This document shows positions 15,410 through 44,124 of a stretch of 64,000 bases of DNA, piece after piece. Made by a program: the position numbers and the translations under genes. Positions within the stretch are counted from its first letter, which is position 1, and the number at the start of each line of letters is the position of its first letter. This stretch comes from Desulfobacterales bacterium (GTDB lineage: Bacteria; Desulfobacterota; Desulfobacteria; Desulfobacterales; JAAELO01): NCBI GenBank assembly GCA_024226555.1, contig JAAELO010000762.1, positions 25,531 through 89,530 on the forward strand, read 5' to 3'. The notes below the pieces were generated by a model. The model did no database searches. It had not been told where the DNA came from and saw nothing but the letters and a program-made list of their open reading frames with translations.

Positions 15410-16765
15410 CTAATAGTTTGAGATTATAAGCCTTCTAGTAAGTTTATAAAGTAGATTTCGTTTGAATGTTTTTTCCATTAACTCCTTTTTTTCTGCTTTT
15501 CTATACCACTTGAGCTCATTTCCAATAACCTCCTGAAGATGTTTGTTGAGCTTCTCATCACAAATTTTTATAAGCCAGTCATTGTTCTTTTTTGATGAGG
15601 ACCATGTAAAATTATCGGTTCCAGTATATGTGATATTTGAGTTTTGAAATAATATCAGCTTTCTATGTACAAATGTTTTTTCATTTAATGACCTTGCTTT
15701 TTCAACATCCAGATAGAAAACATTGAAAGTGCCCTTCATATCTTTTGTCTTTAATAGAAAATAGTGCAGGGTCTCAAGGGTATATAAAAAAGGGGTTCCA
15801 AACCAGACAAATTCTTTGTGTGCCTTTTTTCCATTAGTTATAAGGTTTAGCGTATTACCTCTTTGGATAAAACGAACAAATGCTTTAAATAAAGGCTGCG
15901 GAAAACCTATTGAATATGAAGTCAGATCAATGGTCCCTTTAAAATTGTCTATATCAGCAATTAATGTATCGTGACTGTCATTTGGAAGAATCTCTCTGTT
16001 TTTTACCTTCTCTCCGGAAACAACTATATTTGAAATAACATCATTTGAGAGAAGTTGAGCACGATCTGGAATAAACTGATACTCTTTAAGTGGTTTGCTC
16101 AAATCTACCGGTTTACTTAAATGGTTTGTGATTTCATCTATTTTATCTTTATGATCATTCCCTTTAAAACCTTGGGGAACACTGTATTTAATACTTTTTG
16201 AATTTTTTAAAGTTTTCGAGATTTTCGAGATCTCACTGAAGATCTTATTAAAATTATGCTTAACATCCGTTCCAATATAGTACTCTTTTGAGTCTATGGG
16301 CCTGAAGATATATGCAGAATCGGCTGTTAATGTACTGAAATCTGTATAGCCACGACCTCCGACGATAAGCTTTTCATCCTTTGTATCTGCATCAATCAGG
16401 AGCAACTTTTCATGGTAAAAATCATCCCATGAGATTTTTCCTGTACGCTTATTATAAAGGCTTATGGATTGAACTTTTGCCTGGCATTTTTTATCCACCA
16501 TGATCTTTCCGGATCTGTTAAAAAAATCCTTATCTATCCACGAAGCTGTATGGTCATATACAAAACGAACTTTTACTTTTTTTTTGATCTGAACAGATCT
16601 TATTGCATCTAAGAAGATAAGGCCTGTTTCATCTGTGGCCTGGGAAAAAGTAATGATATCTATTGTGTATTTTGCTCTCTTAATAAGCTCAACGCGGACA
16701 CAAAGATCAACGATCATCTCATTAATATAGATTATTTCAGTATTTAACCTTTCGGGATATATCAT
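15410..16765 (-). CDS. Phospholipase D-like protein
   Basis: HEKLLLIDADTKDEKLIVGGRGYTDF (HKD motif) and degenerate second motif HRKLILFQNSNITYTGTDNFTWSS. Confidence 0.82.
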   Translation of the reverse strand: MIYPERLNTEIIYINEMIVDLCVRVELIKRAKYTIDIITFSQATDETGLIFLDAIRSVQIKKKVKVRFVYDHTASWIDKDFFNRSGKIMVDKKCQAKVQSISLYNKRTGKISWDDFYHEKLLLIDADTKDEKLIVGGRGYTDFSTLTADSAYIFRPIDSKEYYIGTDVKHNFNKIFSEISKISKTLKNSKSIKYSVPQGFKGNDHKDKIDEITNHLSKPVDLSKPLKEYQFIPDRAQLLSNDVISNIVVSGEKVKNREILPNDSHDTLIADIDNFKGTIDLTSYSIGFPQPLFKAFVRFIQRGNTLNLITNGKKAHKEFVWFGTPFLYTLETLHYFLLKTKDMKGTFNVFYLDVEKARSLNEKTFVHRKLILFQNSNITYTGTDNFTWSSSKKNNDWLIKICDEKLNKHLQEVIGNELKWYRKAEKKELMEKTFKRNLLYKLTRRLIISNY

Positions 16766-18417
16766 TTTCTATTCTTACCTAATTTGTTTAATTGGGAAAA
16801 TGGCAGTATTCCCGGGCTGATCATAAATTGTTGGATCTTTGATCTGGTTTTTTCCGGTGAAAATGAAGCTTTTACAAAAATCATTAAAACCTGAAAAAAT
16901 GAAGATAACAGTAGAACAGGTTTTCTTCTGGTGATCTTAAGCCAGTTTATAAATGCAAGTTTTGCTGAATCTTTAAGATACTTTTCAAAATAGTATGACA
17001 GGAAATTGATTGTAACCTCCGAATCCTCATAAATCTTACTGTAAAACAAAGTGTATGGGATTCGATACTCCTCATATAGTGAGAATATAACAGGCCTGGT
17101 TATGTTTGATGAGTTTCGTACATTGTGCTCAAGATCTGTATTTTTATAGGGCCGCCATATTTGAAAAATTGGTGTTGCATTGTATTTCTTAAAAAGATCG
17201 AAAGCAAAATAGTATGTTTTTAAAAGGTCTTCCTTGGTTTCTCCAGGCATACCGAAAATAAAAAAGGTTAGTGTATCTATCTCGTTCTCATAGCATAATT
17301 TACAGGCTTTTATAACATCTTCAATATTCAGATCTTTCTTAATTACATTCTCCAGTACCTTTTTACTTCCACTTTCAACACCAAATATCAGATAGGTACA
17401 ACCAGTTTTTTTGCAGAGTTTAACAAGCTCTTCATCAACAAGGTCAGCGCGAACTCCGTTTGGTGTATCCCAGGTGATATTCCATTCGTTTTTTATTATA
17501 CCTCTTAGAATATTCTTGAACCGTTCAGGATTGAATAGAAGATTATCATCCTCAAAATGAATGTTTCTTACTCCGTGTTTTTCAATGAGAAACTTCATCT
17601 CTTCAAGAACATAATCAACACTCTGGGCACGAACCTTTCGACCCATATGTAAGTGGATACAACAGTGACTGCATTTAAAATTGCAGCCTCTGCTTGTAAC
17701 AAGATCAATTGATCTGTGTGAATCTTTATATTTAGCTATTAGCCTTGAGGGGAAACCTTCTCTGTTTATCTCGAAATATTTCTCTAAATCCACAAGGTCG
17801 TAATCACAATAAAGCTCATCAAGATTCTCTATATATGGTCTATCCTCAGTTATTGTAATATTTTCATTTTCTTTATATGCAATTCCCATTATCTCTTTGT
17901 ATGGTTTGTTAGATCTAAGTTTATCTATAAGTTCTTTAAATGTAACTTCTCCCTCTTTCATCACAATTACATCTATTGCAGAAGTTCTGTTAAAGTAATC
18001 GCGATAATCATTTGTTGCATCAGGGCCGCCAACTATTATGAAAATGTCAGGGAAATTTTTCTTTACCAGATTGATAAGCTTTATAGTGTCACTGATATAG
18101 TAGTTTGCTGTGGATGTGACCGCCAGAACATGTGGGGAATAATTTTCAACATAATCTATAATTTCAGAATCTTCCATTCCGAAATATATAGGTGGATTTT
18201 TTCTCTCGGTCCGTACCTTTTTCAGATCTGCATTAACAAGGATATCTAAAAAATCAGTTTGAACCAGATCATCATCTTTAAAAAGACCTGACAGATACAA
18301 AATACTTTTTGGAAGTCCAATCATTGGAGCATCAGGAGGTTCAATCTCCATAAAATACCCACCAGAGCGCATAAACAGAATCTTAAGGGGTTTATCAGCT
18401 TTATAATTCTTTAACAT
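16762..18417 (-). CDS. B12-binding domain radical SAM protein
   Basis: N-terminal VLAVTSTANYYISDTIKLINLVKKNFPDIFIIVGGPDATN (B12-binding fold); TSRGCNFKCSHCCIH (CxxxCxxC). Confidence 0.88.
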   Translation of the reverse strand: MLKNYKADKPLKILFMRSGGYFMEIEPPDAPMIGLPKSILYLSGLFKDDDLVQTDFLDILVNADLKKVRTERKNPPIYFGMEDSEIIDYVENYSPHVLAVTSTANYYISDTIKLINLVKKNFPDIFIIVGGPDATNDYRDYFNRTSAIDVIVMKEGEVTFKELIDKLRSNKPYKEIMGIAYKENENITITEDRPYIENLDELYCDYDLVDLEKYFEINREGFPSRLIAKYKDSHRSIDLVTSRGCNFKCSHCCIHLHMGRKVRAQSVDYVLEEMKFLIEKHGVRNIHFEDDNLLFNPERFKNILRGIIKNEWNITWDTPNGVRADLVDEELVKLCKKTGCTYLIFGVESGSKKVLENVIKKDLNIEDVIKACKLCYENEIDTLTFFIFGMPGETKEDLLKTYYFAFDLFKKYNATPIFQIWRPYKNTDLEHNVRNSSNITRPVIFSLYEEYRIPYTLFYSKIYEDSEVTINFLSYYFEKYLKDSAKLAFINWLKITRRKPVLLLSSFFQVLMIFVKASFSPEKTRSKIQQFMISPGILPFSQLNKLGKNRK

Positions 18418-18419
18418 TA

Positions 18420-19607
18420 TTACATTTCCCCATGCAGGTTGACGTGAACGGTCTCTTCATTTGCTATTTTTAGTGCTATTTCCTGAGCATTTCTCAGGAA
18501 CTGGTCCTCTTTTACAAGCCTTTCAAAAGCCCTTTTTATATTTTTACCGGATATCTTTTTAAAACATATTGGTTTCGGCCCTATTCCAAGCCTTTTCACT
18601 TTATCCCCCCAATAGAACTGGTCTAATAAATGGGGGATAATCAGTTGTGGAACTCCAGATTTTGCTGCATTAAATGTGGTTCCGGCACCACCATGATGCA
18701 CAATAAATCTCATTTTTGTAAACAGTTTCCCGTGTGAAATTTCACCCACCTCTAAAAAGCGGTTGCTGTTTTCTGTTTCAAAACCAGCCCACCCTTTTTG
18801 AATAATAGCCCTTAAACCAAGTGTTTCAATTACTTCTTTAAAAATCTCAATTGTAGAATTTTCTCCTGGCATACTACCAAAGCCAATATATATTGGAGGC
18901 GCGCCATTCTCGATAAATTCTGTAACTAGCTCTGGTAGTGGGTTTATATCTTCAAGATTAAGATAGGAAATGCTTTTAATCTCATCCGGCAGTTTTGATA
19001 AAACAGGGCTATGGGAGATAATTGTTTTATCTTTCAAAGTTTCAAAAATATCTTTTATCGGTTCTAAACTATTTGCCCTGCGATAACGGTTAATCTTTCC
19101 TTTTACAGTCAAATTCACAGCTGATTTAAAGAAGAACCACAGAAGTTTATTAATCGCACCATCTTTGAACTGAACAGGAACCTGTGGTGGAGAGTGAAGA
19201 TTAGATGGAACCCAGTTTGGAGCAAAAAGTATGTGACTGTATTTTACACTCAATTTTTCAGCAATTGAAAAAGCTGAAAGTTGCAGACCACTTCCAATTA
19301 CATAATCATACCCTTTGATTATTTCGCCAAGCACATCTAATTGAACATCCATCACTTCTCTTAAATTTTGTTTAAACCTTAAAGTGCTCGAAAAGGTTTT
19401 CCCAACCACATCTTTATTATTTATGGCGAGTTCTTTAAAACTTATATTTATAGGATAAAATTTAAATGAGTGCTTTTCAGATAGCTTTTTAAAGTCGCGG
19501 GTTGAACAAACAGATACATCATTTCCCTGATCCCGTAAAAGGCAACCCAAAGCTATTATGGGCCTAACATCACCTTCCGTTCCTATGGGTGTTAAAAGTA
19601 TTTTCAT
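18420..19607 (-). CDS. UGT/MGT-like glycosyltransferase (GT1)
   Basis: MKILLTPIGTEGDVRPIIALG...; IVHHGGAGTTFNAAKSGVPQLIIPHLLDQFYWGDKV. Start at 19607; the longer ORF start lies in a MITE. Confidence 0.87.
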   Translation of the reverse strand: MKILLTPIGTEGDVRPIIALGCLLRDQGNDVSVCSTRDFKKLSEKHSFKFYPINISFKELAINNKDVVGKTFSSTLRFKQNLREVMDVQLDVLGEIIKGYDYVIGSGLQLSAFSIAEKLSVKYSHILFAPNWVPSNLHSPPQVPVQFKDGAINKLLWFFFKSAVNLTVKGKINRYRRANSLEPIKDIFETLKDKTIISHSPVLSKLPDEIKSISYLNLEDINPLPELVTEFIENGAPPIYIGFGSMPGENSTIEIFKEVIETLGLRAIIQKGWAGFETENSNRFLEVGEISHGKLFTKMRFIVHHGGAGTTFNAAKSGVPQLIIPHLLDQFYWGDKVKRLGIGPKPICFKKISGKNIKRAFERLVKEDQFLRNAQEIALKIANEETVHVNLHGEM

Positions 19608-19615
19608 AAAACCTC

Positions 19616-19756
19616 GAGGCTGTGTCACAAATGCACTTTTGCCCAATTTCTACGTCAGATAAAAATTTTAATCCTCAAAATATTCTATATGTTCCTGTGG
19701 TTAAAATTTTGATCTTCCTTGAACTAAAACAAAATCTCTATTTGTGACACAGCCTC
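19616..19756. mobile_element. Family C MITE, copy C1 (141 bp)
   Basis: 17-bp perfect terminal inverted repeat GAGGCTGTGTCACAAAT (19616-19632) / ATTTGTGACACAGCCTC (19740-19756). Confidence 0.9.
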
Positions 19757-20409
19757 CCTTTTTTGGAATTTAAAAATGGAAAAAGCCCTGTTGTATTTTT
19801 GTATGAGATATAATCATCTCCAAAATAACCAATAAGGAGCTTCTCCTCATTATGGATACGTATCAGAGTAAATGGAGAGCATATAAGCATTAAAAGAAAG
19901 CCCAAATAAACTCCAAACATTAGAGTTATACCTATCATAGTAAGGAATGTTCCCAAATAAGCAGGATGCCTTACAATTGAATATATTCCGGTTTTAACAA
20001 GTTTATGATCTTCTCTTATCTGAACTGTATAGGTAAAATTTTCATTCAGATCATACCTTGCTTTAACACGAAAAATTAAACCAGTTATAAAAAATAATAT
20101 TCCAATCATAAAAAGATAATTCCAGAGATAGTCCGGCATAACAGGCCATATTTCAAGGTATCTGTAAAATGAAATAAACAGAGTTAAAGTGCAGAATATC
20201 AAACAGCTTAGCACGCCATTATCATCAGATTGAATTTTATCCTCTTTAAGTGAAAGAGACTCATACATGAAACCAATGAGAACTAAAATATTTGCTATAA
20301 GGACTTTAGCCGGGGAAATAAACGTACTGAAATTAAGAATGACATAGCAAAAGGAGATAGTACTGGTTAAGAGAAAAATAGCTATGATATCTTTTCTATA
20401 TTTATTCAT
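19738..20409 (-). CDS. Isoprenylcysteine carboxyl methyltransferase (ICMT/PEMT)-family membrane methyltransferase
   Basis: GIYSIVRHPAYLGTFLTMIGITLMFG...HNEEKLLIGYFGDDYISYKNTTGLFPFL; multiple TM helices. Confidence 0.85.
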   Translation of the reverse strand: MNKYRKDIIAIFLLTSTISFCYVILNFSTFISPAKVLIANILVLIGFMYESLSLKEDKIQSDDNGVLSCLIFCTLTLFISFYRYLEIWPVMPDYLWNYLFMIGILFFITGLIFRVKARYDLNENFTYTVQIREDHKLVKTGIYSIVRHPAYLGTFLTMIGITLMFGVYLGFLLMLICSPFTLIRIHNEEKLLIGYFGDDYISYKNTTGLFPFLNSKKGRLCHK

Positions 20410-21637
20410 GTTTTTTTATTACACATGCTCCGTTATATCCGCCCCAACCAGCACTAACAATTAAAATTCTTTTTATACTCTTTTTTACTGGTGAATTTGT
20501 AGGAGATAGCTCACAAACATCGTCAAGTTTATCAGGTATATTTTTAGTTGGCAAAAGAGTATTTTCTTTTAAACTAAATATTGAGAGTATAATATTTATC
20601 ATCGCTGTGGCAGCACCAGTATGACCTATTACAGGTTCTGCTGTAAAAGTATGAACCTCTTTAAAATACTTACTGCAAACAGTATAAAGGCCAACATCAA
20701 GTAGATAACAGCCTGTTATGGGAAGATAAACAGAGTCTATTTCAAGGTTTTTATACTTCTCAATCACACTTGTCAAACCCATAAGTTTTCTATCTTTACC
20801 ACCATAATTATCTGAATGAAAAAAGAAATTTACAGATTCTACCTCACCATAAACAGGTGCATTACGCTTAATTGCAGAATCCAGAGATTCAAGTAAAACA
20901 GCACCACCACCCTCTGCAATTACTCCCCTGTTACTTAATAGAGGCGATCCATAAGGAATAACATAATCTTCAAGCTCCCGATCAAAAGAGTTATTACCAA
21001 AAAATGATATTGTTTTACCCGCAACTTTTGCTGCTTTATTGTAAAAAAGGAAGGTTACAGGATAAAGATTTGCTTCACCAACCACAGAAAAAACCCTCTC
21101 ACACATTCCGGATTTTATTAGATTAAAGGCAGAAATAACAGTAAGCATACCAGAGCAGCTGGCTCCCTCGACACTATGCACATAACCATTTATTTTAAAA
21201 TGGGATGCTAAAAGATGACAAGCGCCGGCATTTGAAATACTACTAACGAGATGGTGACTTATCTTTGAAAAAGGTTTTGTACCGATCTCTTTTATAGCTT
21301 CTTCAGCTTTATCTGCACCATGGGAAGCGGAACCAAAAATCAGGCCGGTTCCATTATTTGACATTTCATCCAAACATGATGAATCAATACACTCTTTTAA
21401 AGCTGTGATCCCTAAACGACCGTGCCTTGATAGTGGGGTAACTCTTTTCGCAATAGTAAGATCGAAGGGAACTCTTCCAACATATTTAACAGGAAAATCT
21501 TTGGAAAATGCCTCATATTGTGTAAGACAACTCTCTTTTTGCAGACTTTTATTCCAAAGATCATTTGAAGTTCCGGCAGCAGAGCATGAGCCAAAACCAG
21601 TAATTAATATCTTTTTATCATCAATTAAATTTTCCAT
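20402..21637 (-). CDS. Beta-ketoacyl synthase-like protein (atypical active site)
   Basis: ILITGFGSCSAAGTS, VEGASCSGMLTVISAFNLIKSG, VIGHTGAATAMINI. Confidence 0.82.
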   Translation of the reverse strand: MENLIDDKKILITGFGSCSAAGTSNDLWNKSLQKESCLTQYEAFSKDFPVKYVGRVPFDLTIAKRVTPLSRHGRLGITALKECIDSSCLDEMSNNGTGLIFGSASHGADKAEEAIKEIGTKPFSKISHHLVSSISNAGACHLLASHFKINGYVHSVEGASCSGMLTVISAFNLIKSGMCERVFSVVGEANLYPVTFLFYNKAAKVAGKTISFFGNNSFDRELEDYVIPYGSPLLSNRGVIAEGGGAVLLESLDSAIKRNAPVYGEVESVNFFFHSDNYGGKDRKLMGLTSVIEKYKNLEIDSVYLPITGCYLLDVGLYTVCSKYFKEVHTFTAEPVIGHTGAATAMINIILSIFSLKENTLLPTKNIPDKLDDVCELSPTNSPVKKSIKRILIVSAGWGGYNGACVIKKHE

Positions 21638-21728
21638 TAATTCTGTATATCATAAAAAAACTCTTTATTCTCTTTCCGTATAACTATATTTATAACAGGA
21701 ACCTTAAATATAAGAAAAGGTCATCAAA

Positions 21729-22994
21729 ATGAAAAGCCATCAAAAAATCAGAGAACAGAAAACCCTTTCATTATCACCAGATATGTTGATAAATGATGTC
21801 ATAAAAACATGGCCCCAAACTGTAGCAACTTTTTCAAAAATGGGTTTTTCGTCGTTTAAAATACCCATTTTCAGAAAACTATTTACAAGAAATCTTACAA
21901 TTGAAAGTGCTGCCAAATTTAAAAATGTAGATCTGAATATTCTTCTGATTAACTTACAAAATGCCATTGCAAACCCCACTACTCATAATGAGTCATTTAT
22001 AGACCCTAACAGATTGAGGTTTGATGAAAATACCGTTCCGGATTTAACAGGGGATCTAAGTATGTTTGGTATTATTCCCTGCCCTGTAAGAAATGTTATA
22101 ATCGAAAGATTTGATTCTTTTATACAGGAAAATTATACCAAAAGGGATAAAAAAGTTGCGTGGTGGCTTGCATCAGGTGGCCCTTCCATAATGGATATCA
22201 AGAACTATATAAAATCCACTGTTAAGTCCAATCAATTTGAAACATTTCCGGATCTTTTTCTATCCGTTGGAACAGAGGTATTTTTACACGATGATTTCTG
22301 TAGACCATTATATAAAGAGAATTTTTTTAAACAAACAGATGTTAAAACAAGAGCTGATCTAAAAAAACTTGAGGACCCAAACGGAATTTTACAACTCCAG
22401 TTTGCAGCAATTTTTACTTTTTACTGCATACCTGAATCTCTGGGAGGTCTCCCACTTCCAAATAACTGGTTCGATCTGACTGACCCAAAGTATAAGGGAC
22501 ACATTGTTTTACCTTCTCTAAACCTTCCGGTGATTCCGGATCTTCTATCTGCTCTTTATTTTCACCTTGGAGATAGTCATTTCATAAAGTTTTGCCAAAA
22601 TGTTAAGTTTGCACTACATCCATCCCACAGCTCTGATAGGAAAATTAAGAAAAACTCCCCGGGGATCTTTGTTACTCCCATGCACTTTTCCAAAATAAAA
22701 AAATCTCCCGGGCATGTCAATGTAATCCCGGAAGATGGATTTATAGCTGTTCCGGCATATATTGCTAAAACTTCGCAGAATTCAGAAGTTTCTAAAATGG
22801 AAGATTTTCTGCTTTCTAAAGAACTTCTGGATATCTATTACAATAGTGGGTTTATGCCAAACAATCCTGATATTGAAACGGAGTATCCCATGGATAACCT
22901 GATAACAAGACCCTGGAGCTCTCTATTCGACAATATTCCTGATGAGTTCTTACAACAACTCCTGAGAAACTTTAAACTGGAAGTATCGGCATGA
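21729..22994 (+). CDS. DUF1858-like domain fused to type II substrate-binding-protein fold, no signal peptide
   Basis: LSPDMLINDVIKTWPQTVATFSKMGFSSFKIPIFRK...; Fbp/ModA-like C-terminal region (WFDLTDPKYKGHIVLPS...). Confidence 0.7.
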   Translation: MKSHQKIREQKTLSLSPDMLINDVIKTWPQTVATFSKMGFSSFKIPIFRKLFTRNLTIESAAKFKNVDLNILLINLQNAIANPTTHNESFIDPNRLRFDENTVPDLTGDLSMFGIIPCPVRNVIIERFDSFIQENYTKRDKKVAWWLASGGPSIMDIKNYIKSTVKSNQFETFPDLFLSVGTEVFLHDDFCRPLYKENFFKQTDVKTRADLKKLEDPNGILQLQFAAIFTFYCIPESLGGLPLPNNWFDLTDPKYKGHIVLPSLNLPVIPDLLSALYFHLGDSHFIKFCQNVKFALHPSHSSDRKIKKNSPGIFVTPMHFSKIKKSPGHVNVIPEDGFIAVPAYIAKTSQNSEVSKMEDFLLSKELLDIYYNSGFMPNNPDIETEYPMDNLITRPWSSLFDNIPDEFLQQLLRNFKLEVSA

Positions 22995-23692
22995 AGCTAA
23001 TAATTGTTGGAGGACCACCGTCAGTAGGTAAAACTTCTGTTATTATCCATACCATAAACAACTCAGGTATTAACAAGAGTGGTACTACAGTATTCAAGCT
23101 GGATTGCCTTGTTGCAAATGACTATGAAATCTATAAAAAAAACAAAATAAAAGTCATAACAGGATTATCAACAAATATTTGCCCGGATCATTTCCTTGCA
23201 ACCAACATTGAGAGAGTCGCAAAATATGGGCTTAAGAACAAACTTAACTATATCATAGTTGAAAGTGCCGGATTATGTAACAGGTGCTCTCCCCACTTAA
23301 GAAGCTTTTTAGGAGTAACTGTGCTTGATGTACTAAGTGGAATCCATACACCTAAAAAAATGGGTCCTCTTTTAAAAGCAGCTGATATTGTTGTGTTAAC
23401 CCGCTCAGATCTTATCAGCCAGGCTGAACGTGAAGTTTTCAGAACAAGAATCAGAAATCTAAATCGCAAAGCAAAAATTCTTGAAATTAATGGTTTAACA
23501 GGGCAAAACAGCCAAACCCTTGGAAATCTCTTTAAAGATGCAACCGATTTTGATGAATCTATCCCACTATCACTTAAATATGCAATGCCAGGGGCTGTAT
23601 GCTCGTTTTGTTTAGGAGAAAAGAGAGTTGGTGAAACTTACGCAAGTGGCAATGTTAAACTGATGGAATTGAAAGGTTTTCCAAATCAATGA
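22991..23692 (+). CDS. HypB/UreG-like SIMIBI P-loop GTPase
   Basis: GGPPSVGKTSVI Walker A; IIVESAGLCNRCSPHL; VVLTRSDL at the G4 position; C-terminal AVCSFCLGEKRVGETY. Confidence 0.78.
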   Translation: MKLIIVGGPPSVGKTSVIIHTINNSGINKSGTTVFKLDCLVANDYEIYKKNKIKVITGLSTNICPDHFLATNIERVAKYGLKNKLNYIIVESAGLCNRCSPHLRSFLGVTVLDVLSGIHTPKKMGPLLKAADIVVLTRSDLISQAEREVFRTRIRNLNRKAKILEINGLTGQNSQTLGNLFKDATDFDESIPLSLKYAMPGAVCSFCLGEKRVGETYASGNVKLMELKGFPNQ

Positions 23693-23713
23693 GGCACAAA
23701 AGCTATTTGTGCC
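23693..23713. repeat. Short palindrome abutting a stop codon
   Basis: GGCACAAA agcta TTTGTGCC directly after TGA of the GTPase gene. Confidence 0.85.
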
Positions 23714-23838
23714 AACTACTTTGGGTGAAAATTCACTATTGTCTGGTAAAAAAACAGATAAAGGGAATCTCTAATAAATTAGAATTTTTGTATAATATTT
23801 ACATATTTAATAACATACAACCAGACTAATGGTGAAAA

Positions 23839-24819
23839 ATGATTGACGGCTCTGCAAGAGGTAATCAAAACCCAGGGGAAGAAGCTCTTTCTTTAAAAGA
23901 TCTTTCAAAAAAATATCCTGCTATTAAAGGATTGCTAAATGATCTTGGTGTGCCTGTTACTAAAAAACAATCCCTCGCATTTCTCTGCGAAGAAGCAGGC
24001 GTAGATCATAGAGATGTGCTTGATATCCTAAACGGAAAGGTAATTTCAGAGGAATTACCTTCTATAGATGTTGAAGATCTGACAATCATCCCTGGAAAAA
24101 ATAAATCTGGAAAATCTGAATTTAAGGATTCAATTACAATCTGTCGGGGTGAAATTATAGCAATTGTTGGGGCAACTGGTTCCGGCAAATCACAGCTCCT
24201 TAGTGATATTGAAGGAATGGTTCAAGGTGATTCCCCATCAGGACGTTCGATAGAATTGAATAAAAACAGTATTGATGATGATCTAAGATTAAACTCTTTT
24301 CTGTTTATCGCTCAAATATCTCAAAATATGAACTACCTTATAGATCTACCTGTCAGCGAATTTCTCGATCTTCATATAGAGAGTCGAATGGTTAAGAATA
24401 GTAAAGGACTTAAGAAAAAAGTAGTCAAAGAGGCTTGCAAACTGTGTGGTGAGGCTTTTGAACTTAATGATAAGATGGTCTCATTATCGGGCGGCCAGGC
24501 AAGAGCGCTTATGATAGCGGATTCAATCTTTATCAGTGATTCACCAATAATACTGGTGGATGAAATTGAAAATGCCGGTATTGATCAGGAAAAAGCGATA
24601 GATCTTCTTTTAGGAAAACAAAACATAACTATAATTGCCACCCACAGTCCGCTTATCGCTCTTTTAGCCCATAAAAGAATTATTTTAAAAAATGGGGGAA
24701 TTGATAAGATTATTACAAAAACTCCCGAAGAGGAAGAAACTCTGAAATCTCTTTCTGAAATGAATATTTTTCAAAATAACCTAAAAGAGAAATTAAGAAG
24801 AGGAGATAATCTAAGATAG
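23839..24819 (+). CDS. ABC ATPase with N-terminal DUF1858/ScdA_N-like domain
   Basis: LSLKDLSKKYPAIKGLLNDLGVPVTKKQSLAFLCEEAGVDHRDVLDILNG; GATGSGKSQLL, LSGGQARALMIAD, PIILVDEIE. Confidence 0.85.
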   Translation: MIDGSARGNQNPGEEALSLKDLSKKYPAIKGLLNDLGVPVTKKQSLAFLCEEAGVDHRDVLDILNGKVISEELPSIDVEDLTIIPGKNKSGKSEFKDSITICRGEIIAIVGATGSGKSQLLSDIEGMVQGDSPSGRSIELNKNSIDDDLRLNSFLFIAQISQNMNYLIDLPVSEFLDLHIESRMVKNSKGLKKKVVKEACKLCGEAFELNDKMVSLSGGQARALMIADSIFISDSPIILVDEIENAGIDQEKAIDLLLGKQNITIIATHSPLIALLAHKRIILKNGGIDKIITKTPEEEETLKSLSEMNIFQNNLKEKLRRGDNLR

Positions 24820-24833
24820 TTGGGTTAAACCTA

Positions 24834-24852
24834 AGGTGCACAAAGTGCACCT
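24834..24852. repeat. Perfect palindrome between convergent genes
   Basis: AGGTGCAC aaa GTGCACCT. Confidence 0.9.
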
Positions 24853-24864
24853 ACGAATCTTTAA

Positions 24865-26382
24865 TCAATTAATTCTACCAGGCTCTAATGTTTTTGAAAC
24901 GCCTATAGATTTTAGAAATTCCCTGTTATGACTAACAACAATAAGAGTTCCTTTCCATGCTTTTAAAGCTTTTCTGAGGGATGTTTCTCCTACAAAATCA
25001 AGGCTAAAGGTTGGTTCATCCAACACTAAAATCTGTATCCCTGGTTTTTGATGAAATAAACATATTAGAGCTGCTCTCACTCTTTCACCCGGGCTTAGTG
25101 AAGAGATTGGCCTTTCTGCTAAAGCAATCGGAAATTTATGCATCAAAAGAACCCTGGTAACCTCATCAGTTTTTTGACTACCTGAGTAGATCATTAGCCG
25201 TGCGAAAAGGCTTTCATCTGTCATCCAGTTTGCTCCTCCCTGGGAGATCCACCCTAAATTTCCATCAATTGAAACCTTTCCACTAAAGGGTTTAGTGTTC
25301 CCCACAATAATATTGAGAAGGGTTGTTTTTCCTACTCCATTTGAGCCTACAATAGCAAATTTCTCATAACCAATTGATAGATCAATATCTTTGAAAAGAT
25401 AACCTTTATCAAATTTTGCTGATATAGATTCCAAAACAACAGGAGTATTATTTCCTAAAACATCTATCTTTATATCCGGAAGCTCAAGAGGAAGATTCAC
25501 AGAAAGAGCTCTTCTGCTAACAAGAGTCCTTTTCCTTTCTGTACTAATTCTATCCTGCTCTATTCTTGCAGCTTTTCCCTGATTAACCTGAGCTTTACCT
25601 CTTTTTGTATTTAGTCTGGATTTAGGTGTACATCTTTCAAGTTCACTTATTCGTCCAAAGTTCTTTTTCCTTCGCCTTCTTCTTGTCACCTTAACTCTGT
25701 GTTCCTCTTTCCTATCAAGCATATTGATCTGTTTTATATATTGTTTTTCAGCGTCCAGTGCCTGATCTTCAAGTAGTAGCGAAAGTTCATTGAAAGAACC
25801 TGAAAAATAACTACAACCTGATTCTGAAATAATAAAAAAATGCTTAAAGTGAGAAAGTAATAGCCGATCATGGGAAACAACAATTAAGCCCTTTTCCCAT
25901 GATAAAATCCAGTCTATCAGCCACTCAACACCTCTTTCATCCAGATCTTCTGTTGGCTCATCGAGAAGCAGCATATCAGGGGATATTAATTTTGCTAAAA
26001 GAAGATGAAGCTTTCTGATTTCACCATAACTAAAGTTATTTGAATGCATTATTTCTGATGGTTCAGGAAAACCTAACTCTTTAAGCTCTTTCTCCAAAGA
26101 TGATATATTTATAGAAGTGATAGCTTTCAAAACTGTTTCAACACTTGAAGGTAGCTGCTGAGAAACCAGACAGGGCTGTTCTCTAAAACGAACTTCACCT
26201 TGATCCGGCTCCTGAATACCAGCCATAACTTTTAAAAGAGTTGATTTTCCAATTCCATTTCTACCGATAACGGCAACCTTCTCACCTTCAAACACCATAT
26301 TAAGATCATTGAATAAAGGCCTTCCCTCAAGAGTGCTGATGTTAACACCCTTTAATTTAAGTGATGTAGAGTGTTTAGTCAT
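24865..26382 (-). CDS. ABC-F family ATPase (tandem ABC domains)
   Basis: GRNGIGKSTLLKVMAG, FSYGEIRKLHLLLAKLISPDMLLLDEPTEDLD; GSNGVGKTTLLNII, LSPGERVRAALI...LVLDEPTFSLD; no TM domain; charged linker. Confidence 0.9.
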   Translation of the reverse strand: MTKHSTSLKLKGVNISTLEGRPLFNDLNMVFEGEKVAVIGRNGIGKSTLLKVMAGIQEPDQGEVRFREQPCLVSQQLPSSVETVLKAITSINISSLEKELKELGFPEPSEIMHSNNFSYGEIRKLHLLLAKLISPDMLLLDEPTEDLDERGVEWLIDWILSWEKGLIVVSHDRLLLSHFKHFFIISESGCSYFSGSFNELSLLLEDQALDAEKQYIKQINMLDRKEEHRVKVTRRRRRKKNFGRISELERCTPKSRLNTKRGKAQVNQGKAARIEQDRISTERKRTLVSRRALSVNLPLELPDIKIDVLGNNTPVVLESISAKFDKGYLFKDIDLSIGYEKFAIVGSNGVGKTTLLNIIVGNTKPFSGKVSIDGNLGWISQGGANWMTDESLFARLMIYSGSQKTDEVTRVLLMHKFPIALAERPISSLSPGERVRAALICLFHQKPGIQILVLDEPTFSLDFVGETSLRKALKAWKGTLIVVSHNREFLKSIGVSKTLEPGRIN

Positions 26383-42489: not shown

Positions 42490-44124
42490 TTAAAGAACTT
42501 TAACTTTGTAAGTCTCATTTGTATGAGGATCAATAACATGAACCGCACAAGCTATACATGGATCAAATGAGTGTATCGTTCTAAGAACTTCAAGAGGTCT
42601 CTTAGCATCAGCAATTGGAGTACCAATTAATGCATTTTCATAAGGTCCCATCTGACCTTTTGCATCTCTTGGTGACATGTTCCATGTTGTAGGAACAACA
42701 TACTGATAGTTCTTAATTTTTCCACCCTTAATTACTACCCAGTGACCCAAACCACCACGAGGAACATCATTAAGTCCACGTCCTTTAATCTCACCTTTAG
42801 GGAAACTCCATTCCTGATAAGTCTTGGTTTTTCCTTTAGAGATATTAGACTTTAACTGGTTTAACCATCCGCCCATTTCGTTACCGATAAGAACTGTTTC
42901 AAGTCCTCTTGCCGCTGTACGACCAAGAGTTGAGAAAAGAGCTCCAGCACCAACGTTAAGCTTCTTAAGGGTTGCACCAACAAGTTTTTTTACAGCAGGA
43001 TCACCCTTAGCATAAGCAACAAGTACTCTTGCAAGAGGACCAACTTCCATTGGAGCACCATTATAACGAGGAGCTTTACTCCATGAGTAATGGCTATCAG
43101 AATGCTTAATATCTTCAGCAAGAGGTTTGGTTTCACCTTTATAAGGATGCTTTGCAGATCCTTTTTCATACCAACCGTGGGAAACATCCTCTGTAACTTT
43201 TTTATCATCAAATTTTCTATACCTAAGATCACCTTTTAGGTAACCGGAAGGTAAGAATAGTTTTGATTCGCTATCATTTAGTGGGAATTCACCATAAGCA
43301 AGAAAGTTCTTATTTCCACCAATTGCACCCCAATCTTTGTAGAAAGAAGCAACCGCAAGAAGATCCGGAATATAAATTTCATCGATGAATTTTTTTGTTT
43401 CTTTCCAGATACTTTCAAACTTTTTAAGGTTTTTAACTGTCAAATCGCTGCTTAGTGTAACACCACCAACAACAAGAGACTGTGGATGTGGGTTTTTACC
43501 ACCAAGAATAGCATGCATTGTTGCAGCTTTTGCCTGAAGCTGAAGAGCTTCAAGATAGTGAGCTGCTGCCATAAGGTTAGCTTCTGGTGGAAGCTTCATA
43601 GCAGGGTGCCCCCAGTAACCATTGCTAAATGGACCAAGCTGGCCACTGTTAACAAAATTCTGAAGAATTCCTTTAACTTTCTTGAAATAATCTGCGCTTT
43701 CTGGTCTTCCACTTGCATTTGCAGAAAGTTTTGCTGTTGCTTTTGGATCAGCACTTAGAGCACTTACAATATCTACCCAGTCAAGGGCATGTAGATGATA
43801 GAAATGCACGATATGGTCCTGCTGGTACTGAGCACCATGCAGAAGGTTTCTTATTAAACGGGCATTTTCAGGAATTGTAAGATTTAGTGCATCTTCAACT
43901 GCTCTAACTGAAGAAAGAGCATGAATATATGTACAAACACCGCATGATCTCTGAACAAAATGCTGAGCATCTCTCGGATCACGTCCTGTAAGCATGTTCT
44001 CAATACCTCTGAACATCTGACCGGAACTCCAGGCATTTTTAACTTTACCGTTTTCAACTTCCACGTCTATACGTAGATGACCCTCTATTCTAGTAATAGG
44101 ATCAATTGTTATTCTTTTACCCAT
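42490..44124 (-). CDS. Periplasmic [NiFe] hydrogenase large subunit
   Basis: RITIDPITRIEGHLRIDVEVENG, RSCGVCTYIHALSSVRAVEDAL, FDPCIACAVH-VIDPHTNETYKVKVL. Confidence 0.97.
   Translation of the reverse strand: MGKRITIDPITRIEGHLRIDVEVENGKVKNAWSSGQMFRGIENMLTGRDPRDAQHFVQRSCGVCTYIHALSSVRAVEDALNLTIPENARLIRNLLHGAQYQQDHIVHFYHLHALDWVDIVSALSADPKATAKLSANASGRPESADYFKKVKGILQNFVNSGQLGPFSNGYWGHPAMKLPPEANLMAAAHYLEALQLQAKAATMHAILGGKNPHPQSLVVGGVTLSSDLTVKNLKKFESIWKETKKFIDEIYIPDLLAVASFYKDWGAIGGNKNFLAYGEFPLNDSESKLFLPSGYLKGDLRYRKFDDKKVTEDVSHGWYEKGSAKHPYKGETKPLAEDIKHSDSHYSWSKAPRYNGAPMEVGPLARVLVAYAKGDPAVKKLVGATLKKLNVGAGALFSTLGRTAARGLETVLIGNEMGGWLNQLKSNISKGKTKTYQEWSFPKGEIKGRGLNDVPRGGLGHWVVIKGGKIKNYQYVVPTTWNMSPRDAKGQMGPYENALIGTPIADAKRPLEVLRTIHSFDPCIACAVHVIDPHTNETYKVKVL

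Follow-up and report, generated by a model that had tools for sequence, protein, structure and literature searches.

Three co-directional genes at positions 21729-24819 of a 64,000-nt stretch of DNA from a Desulfobacterales bacterium (assembly GCA_024226555.1, contig JAAELO010000762.1, positions 25,531-89,530 of the forward strand; the whole stretch is called the window below) represent a conserved bacterial module, and we give roughly even odds (probability about 0.5) to its being a cytosolic metal-trafficking module driven by nucleoside triphosphates (NTPs), engaged in delivery or repair and most likely dealing with iron or Fe-S centres. The three open reading frames (ORFs), all on the plus strand, encode a solute-binding protein with an N-terminal DUF1858 domain (gene 1), a P-loop GTPase (gene 2) and an ABC ATPase (gene 3). 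The main clade of this trio belongs to the nitric oxide (NO)/Hcp stress regulon, controlled by HcpR. The module is carried by hundreds of genomes, oral and gut anaerobes among them, and it uses binding-protein and ABC-ATPase parts inside the cell, alongside a GTPase of the metallochaperone type. It is apparently undescribed, as no description of it was found in the open literature (subscription papers and preprints lay outside the scope).

Conservation of the trio

Two sources supplied the relatives of the GTPase: a sample of the phylum, in which 16 of 297 genomes had a match, and a survey across bacterial and archaeal species (the best 80 of at least 574). In 83 loci, the ABC ATPase gene is located beside the GTPase gene in 82 cases and the binding-protein gene in 73, while the full trio is seen in 72; several of the missing members fall at contig ends. 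As a rule, gene 1 is followed by gene 2 and gene 2 by gene 3. Represented among the loci are Bacillota, Bacteroidota, Spirochaetota, Fusobacteriota, Thermodesulfobacteriota, Cloacimonadota and further groups, and the hosts, which span many phyla, are mostly anaerobes. Such co-occurrence is far beyond chance, and the trio is a real conserved module.

An earlier note on this DNA had proposed a cytosolic metal machine rather than a transporter, and had named three observations that would speak against it: a permease conserved beside homologous trios, a genuine export signal on the binding protein, or a lack of synteny in related genomes. None of the three was made. Synteny is conserved across phyla, as described above; a permease is normally absent beside the trio in the main clade, with none in most main-clade loci; and no signal peptide was found in the 73 homologues of the binding protein, their N-termini being judged by inspection. 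Its statements on the window itself also hold, as no permease was seen among the genes flanking the trio, and gene 1 starts without a signal peptide.

The trio may be extended by a fourth gene, encoding a zinc-ribbon protein of approximately 80 amino acids (aa) with an MH(D/E)GC start and two CxxC pairs and situated directly 3' of gene 3. Over 28 residues the ribbon is similar to the one in HypA; the proteins start with MH(D/E) in 33 cases out of 37, and HypA starts with MHE. Among solved structures there was no significant match to this protein.

There are also side branches, in which more distant GTPase-ATPase pairs occur with a complete FecBCD-type importer, a SAM methyltransferase and a binding protein of shorter length; a TonB receptor, a DUF364 (heavy-metal-chelation) gene, and NifH or NifV-like genes are at times present as well. 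Other side branches adjoin SsuABC-type or ModABC importers, or an Fe-S protein, a cysteine desulfurase and an Rrf2 regulator. The common thread of the side branches is metal uptake and metallocluster metabolism.

Several individual loci may be described here. The GTPase-ATPase pair, cytosolic binding protein, SAM methyltransferase and FecBCD-type importer form a recurrent metal-chelate-like cassette (loci L026, L064, L091, L163 and L171), and in L020 (3839-8872) such a cassette is located beside NifH, a protein with the FeMo-co-binding domain and a sigma-54 activator. The locus L083 (1077-6982) comprises a methyltransferase, the GTPase, the ABC ATPase and the binding protein, followed by two genes similar to HMGL/homocitrate synthase and a second ABC ATPase. 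In L029, L030 and L031 the GTPase-ATPase pair is found with a PF04060-type Fe-S protein, with an Rrf2-like regulator in L029 and L031 and a cysteine desulfurase in L029.

Domains and motifs of the three proteins

Gene 1 (21729-22994, plus strand; 421 aa) combines DUF1858 (PF08984, E = 3.6e-11, residues 16-72) with a solute-binding fold of the FbpA/FutA type (PF13343 SBP_bac_6, E = 6.5e-25, residues 172-390). The best PDB folds for its AlphaFold2 model (pLDDT 83) are P5PA, FutA and FbpA, so that the model resembles ferric-binding proteins, but proteins binding pyridoxal phosphate (PLP) and sugar phosphates too. The likeness to the FbpA/FutA-type ferric-binding proteins holds for both the predicted fold and the sequence profile, whereas the lack of a signal peptide, the N-terminal DUF1858, an invariant cysteine at the first strand-helix turn and the GTPase partner set gene 1 apart from them. 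The homologues of gene 1 share invariant P117-C118 and H297. C118 stands where the first strand of the fold has ended and turns into a helix, and, judging by secondary structure rather than by superposition, we infer that it corresponds in position to the His ligand in FbpA. The identity of the window protein to its relatives is only 19-24%.

Gene 2 (22991-23692, plus strand; 233 aa), which overlaps gene 1 by 4 nt, encodes a P-loop GTPase of the CobW/HypB/UreG class (PF02492, E = 1.3e-12, 48.1 bits against the cut-off of 20.7). Besides the Walker A motif GGPPSVGKT it contains C64-P-D-H67, C96xxC99 (CNRC, residues 96-99) and C204xxC207 (CSFC, residues 204-207), the latter three being invariant in the alignment of the GTPase family. 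C64-P65 lines up with the UreG motif Cys-Pro-His, which is known as a metal site of that protein. The closest solved relatives are UreG and HypB, and the closest named NCBIfam model is HypB (E = 3e-10). At the same time, the scores stay well short of the curated cut-offs for both families (hypB, 39.9 of 121.2 bits; ureG, 26 of 204.2 bits), and hence gene 2 is not filed as HypB or UreG. RecA matches of the GTPase profile were set aside as repeated weak P-loop matches.

Thus compared, the trio GTPase shares with the nickel metallochaperones HypB and UreG (the SIMIBI class) the P-loop GTPase fold and the aligned Cys-Pro, and many of its relatives have a HypA-like zinc-ribbon partner starting with MH(D/E). 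It differs from them, apart from the low scores, in the extra invariant pairs C96xxC99 and C204xxC207, in being nearly always accompanied by an ABC ATPase and usually by a cytosolic binding protein, and in occurring in genomes without [NiFe] hydrogenase.

Gene 3 (23839-24819, plus strand; 326 aa) encodes a stand-alone ABC ATPase (PF00005, E = 3.1e-13) with intact catalytic motifs (Walker A, LSGGQ, E242, H269), whose nucleotide-binding domain is CbiO/ECF-like in the model (pLDDT 86). The N-terminus of the protein (approximately residues 15-70) appears to be a diverged DUF1858-like helical domain. It has no Pfam DUF1858 match at E up to 1, yet the profile-profile comparison with DUF1858 of gene 1 yields E = 7.5e-7 and the probability of 85%, whereas the best of 20 column-shuffled control profiles reached E = 0.023 and 2%. 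This supports, at the level of profiles, the relationship between the two domains.

SufC is a soluble ABC ATPase at work in the cytosol, where it serves Fe-S assembly without a permease, and gene 3 may be likened to it in this respect. The differences are that no SufB or SufD homologue was seen in the trio module, that gene 3 has the DUF1858-like N-terminus, and that SufC is absent among the listed family matches of the trio proteins.

The layout given in the earlier note (three co-directional genes, the 4-nt overlap, a DUF1858/solute-binding gene, a GTPase and an ABC ATPase) is confirmed by the ORFs and Pfam matches; GGPPSVGKT, CNRC, CSFC and LSGGQ were all found as claimed, and the similarity of the gene 3 N-terminus to DUF1858, which that note had suspected, is upheld by the profile comparison. 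Our analysis adds C64-P-D-H67, the zinc-ribbon fourth gene, the side branches beside metal-chelate-type importers and the Hcp/HcpR link.

The Hcp/HcpR link and the proposed role

An hcp gene (Prismane, E = 2.4e-183) is located at most 6 kb from the trio in 17 of the 83 loci, in two independent arrangements: in Bacillota it follows the trio on the same strand, and in Desulfuromonadales it lies upstream in divergent orientation. With Hcp genes numbering roughly one per genome of several megabases, we estimate that well under one such locus would be expected by chance. The scan of the 83 nearest neighbour genes yielded seven regulators of the Crp family and three of the Rrf2 family.

We then considered the published HcpR operators (PMC1274295), namely HcpR2 GTAACnnnnGTTAC (GTAAC-N4-GTTAC) and the HcpR1/FNR-type TTGAC-N4-GTCAA. 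Perfect GTAAC-N4-GTTAC sites (n = 25) in 1.17 Mb of the trio loci fall into trio promoters (n = 18), hcp (n = 6) and a single other place, and shuffled promoters yield none. Several of the 18 come from closely related Marinifilaceae, those from Bacillota and a Fusobacterium being independent. With at most one mismatch, TTGAC-N4-GTCAA is found at trio promoters ten times against 0.6 expected, mainly in Desulfuromonadales, a group for which PMC1274295 describes sites of this type. The NsrR-type motif was not enriched at trio promoters (2 against 1.4 expected). Because its promoters carry published HcpR sites, the perfect ones being shared with hcp, the main clade of the trio belongs to the HcpR regulon. 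Co-occurrence with Hcp was dropped as a proof, since Hcp matches are found in 226 of the 297 genomes of the phylum sample, and hence adjacency and operator sites alone count as evidence.

According to the main text of PMC1274295, the HcpR regulon of anaerobes includes hcp and frdX, and in most Bacteroides, Fusobacterium nucleatum, Treponema denticola and Thermotogales it consists of hcp only; ABC transporters and GTP-related genes are not mentioned there. The trio promoters share with that regulon the operator motifs, often with hcp beside them, and, as only hcp is listed for most Bacteroides and F. nucleatum, the trio appears to be an addition to the HcpR2 regulons. Another system to compare is the RIC/ScdA (YtfE) proteins, which repair iron centres: the context of NO stress is similar, and there is a small N-terminal helical domain, which the earlier note likened to DUF1858, whereas the trio has no hemerythrin-like di-iron domain.

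If the module traffics metals, its parts could act as follows. A metal or a metal complex would be carried by gene 1, a cytosolic protein that has a ferric-binding fold and an invariant Cys; gene 2, whose HypB/UreG-like GTPase has the Cys-Pro-Asp-His metal motif and two further Cys pairs, would gate the hand-over; gene 3, having no membrane partner, would drive conformational work, by analogy with SufC in the Suf system; and the parts would be tethered to one another through the DUF1858-type domains of genes 1 and 3. Since it is under HcpR, the main-clade module, often with the HypA-like zinc-ribbon partner of approximately 80 aa, would probably help to build or repair NO-damaged metal centres, those of Hcp included, and Hcp is likely a beneficiary. 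The anatomy, the synteny, the regulatory sites, the linkage with hcp and the lack of a permease and of a signal peptide are observations, whereas metal binding, docking of the parts, the direction of transfer and the client are conjectural.

A sharper version of this scheme is a previously unrecognised NO-induced machine for metallocluster assembly or salvage in anaerobes, in which iron from damaged or nitrosylated centres would be collected by the cytosolic protein of the ferric-binding type and passed on by the GTPase and the ABC ATPase to Hcp and further Fe-S enzymes; in such detail we put it forward only tentatively, as rather improbable. The placement under HcpR gives a testable handle on how metal centres are protected or rebuilt under NO in strict anaerobes, and it also bears on whether Hcp needs a maturation partner.

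Several observations weigh against metal trafficking or against its tie to Hcp. Solute-binding folds of the class of gene 1 bind phosphonates, sugar phosphates, pyridoxal phosphate and polyamines as well. The fourth gene is present in only 37 of the 83 loci, and the similarity of its ribbon to that of HypA over so short a segment may be generic. Parvimonas micra and a Leptotrichia, along with two metagenome-assembled genomes, carry the trio without an Hcp match, so Hcp is not the sole client. The window GTPase is a long branch on the tree and falls into no supported group, and the Hcp/HcpR signatures are all missing from the window copy.

Alternative explanations and the window copy

The trio could be a dedicated maturation or repair factor of Hcp, which together with the zinc-ribbon partner assembles or re-metallates the hybrid cluster. 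This would fit the linkage with hcp in operons or by divergent promoters in several phyla, the shared HcpR sites, and the presence of Hcp in 24 of the 28 trio genomes without hcp linkage and in all 11 searched trio genomes of the same order. However, the four trio genomes named above have no detectable Hcp, and in the phylum sample the GTPase is found in 16 genomes as opposed to 226 with the Hcp model, therefore Hcp does not need the GTPase, and we consider this explanation unlikely. Quite doubtful, too, is a ligand-sensing or small-molecule system (its ligand being, for instance, a polyamine or a phosphorylated compound) with the NTPases as switches and the Hcp link reflecting the shared stress regulon only. 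The fold class does bind sugar phosphates, PLP and polyamines, and co-regulation alone is no proof of a metal role, but the invariant Cys of gene 1, the invariant Cys/His motifs of gene 2 and the side-branch neighbours concerned with metal uptake and Fe-S metabolism would then be unexpected.

If the trio were an ordinary ABC importer with a permease encoded elsewhere, the solute-binding fold and the ABC ATPase would be natural, as would the minority of relatives beside FecBCD, SsuABC or ModABC importers. Yet none of the 73 binding proteins shows a signal peptide, most main-clade loci are permease-free, the adjacent FecBCD-type importers come with a periplasmic binding protein, a permease and an ATPase of their own, and a permanent GTPase partner is alien to importers, all of which makes this variant very improbable. 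Insertion of nickel into [NiFe] hydrogenase, urease or CODH, as by HypB, UreG or CooC, is equally improbable. In its favour are HypB as the closest named NCBIfam model and the [NiFe] hydrogenase large subunit in the window (42538-44010, minus strand; PF00374, E = 8.4e-215), approximately 18 kb from the trio; against it, the HypB score is about a third of the cut-off, and a search of 28 trio genomes for the hydrogenase large subunit gave no match in 19 of them (urease and CODH were not searched for). Thus, of the proposal in the earlier note, the cytosolic non-transporter metal machine gains from the conservation of the module, the metal-type GTPase motifs and the matching DUF1858-type domains, whereas nickel delivery to [NiFe] hydrogenase, implied by its comparison with HypB and UreG, is unlikely.

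Upstream of the window trio we found no HcpR1, HcpR2 or FNR-type palindromes, the best candidate in 300 bp matching 7 of 10 positions. The hcp gene of this genome is located on another contig and has its own perfect HcpR1-type site TTGACGTAAGTCAA; the genome contains four Prismane-family genes (contigs C764, C701, C69 and C194), two of them matching the Hcp model. The fourth gene had no match in the window genome, an empty answer that is weak when taken alone. In the same order the GTPase is matched in 24 of 391 genomes, and hence the trio is sporadic; most of the same-order trios inspected stand alone, with neither Hcp nor the fourth gene nearby, and none of the HcpR, FNR or CRP-type sites considered at these stand-alone trios was convincing. 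As its catalytic motifs are intact, the window copy is probably functional, and we infer that this divergent form, with no fourth gene and no HcpR sites, would do the same job as the main clade.

The presumed promoter of the trio is in the intergenic region 21638-21728 (plus strand), divergent from a ketoacyl-synthase-like gene. A perfect 8-bp inverted repeat GGCACAAA-5-TTTGTGCC (23693-23713) directly follows the stop codon of gene 2, inside the gap of 146 bp that separates it from gene 3. It is terminator-like on the minus strand only, with no T-run on the plus strand; given the repeat in this gap, gene 3 may have a promoter of its own. No Rfam families were found within window positions 20000-26000. 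Judging from translations, the downstream neighbours of the trio are convergent ABC-F-like and HflX-like genes, and just 3' of gene 3 there is another perfect 8-bp inverted repeat, AGGTGCAC-3-GTGCACCT (24834-24852). The upstream ketoacyl-synthase-like gene belongs to an operon-like run on the minus strand (16762-21637) with radical SAM, glycosyltransferase-like and methyltransferase-like genes, which, as named from translations only, is possibly a natural-product cluster.
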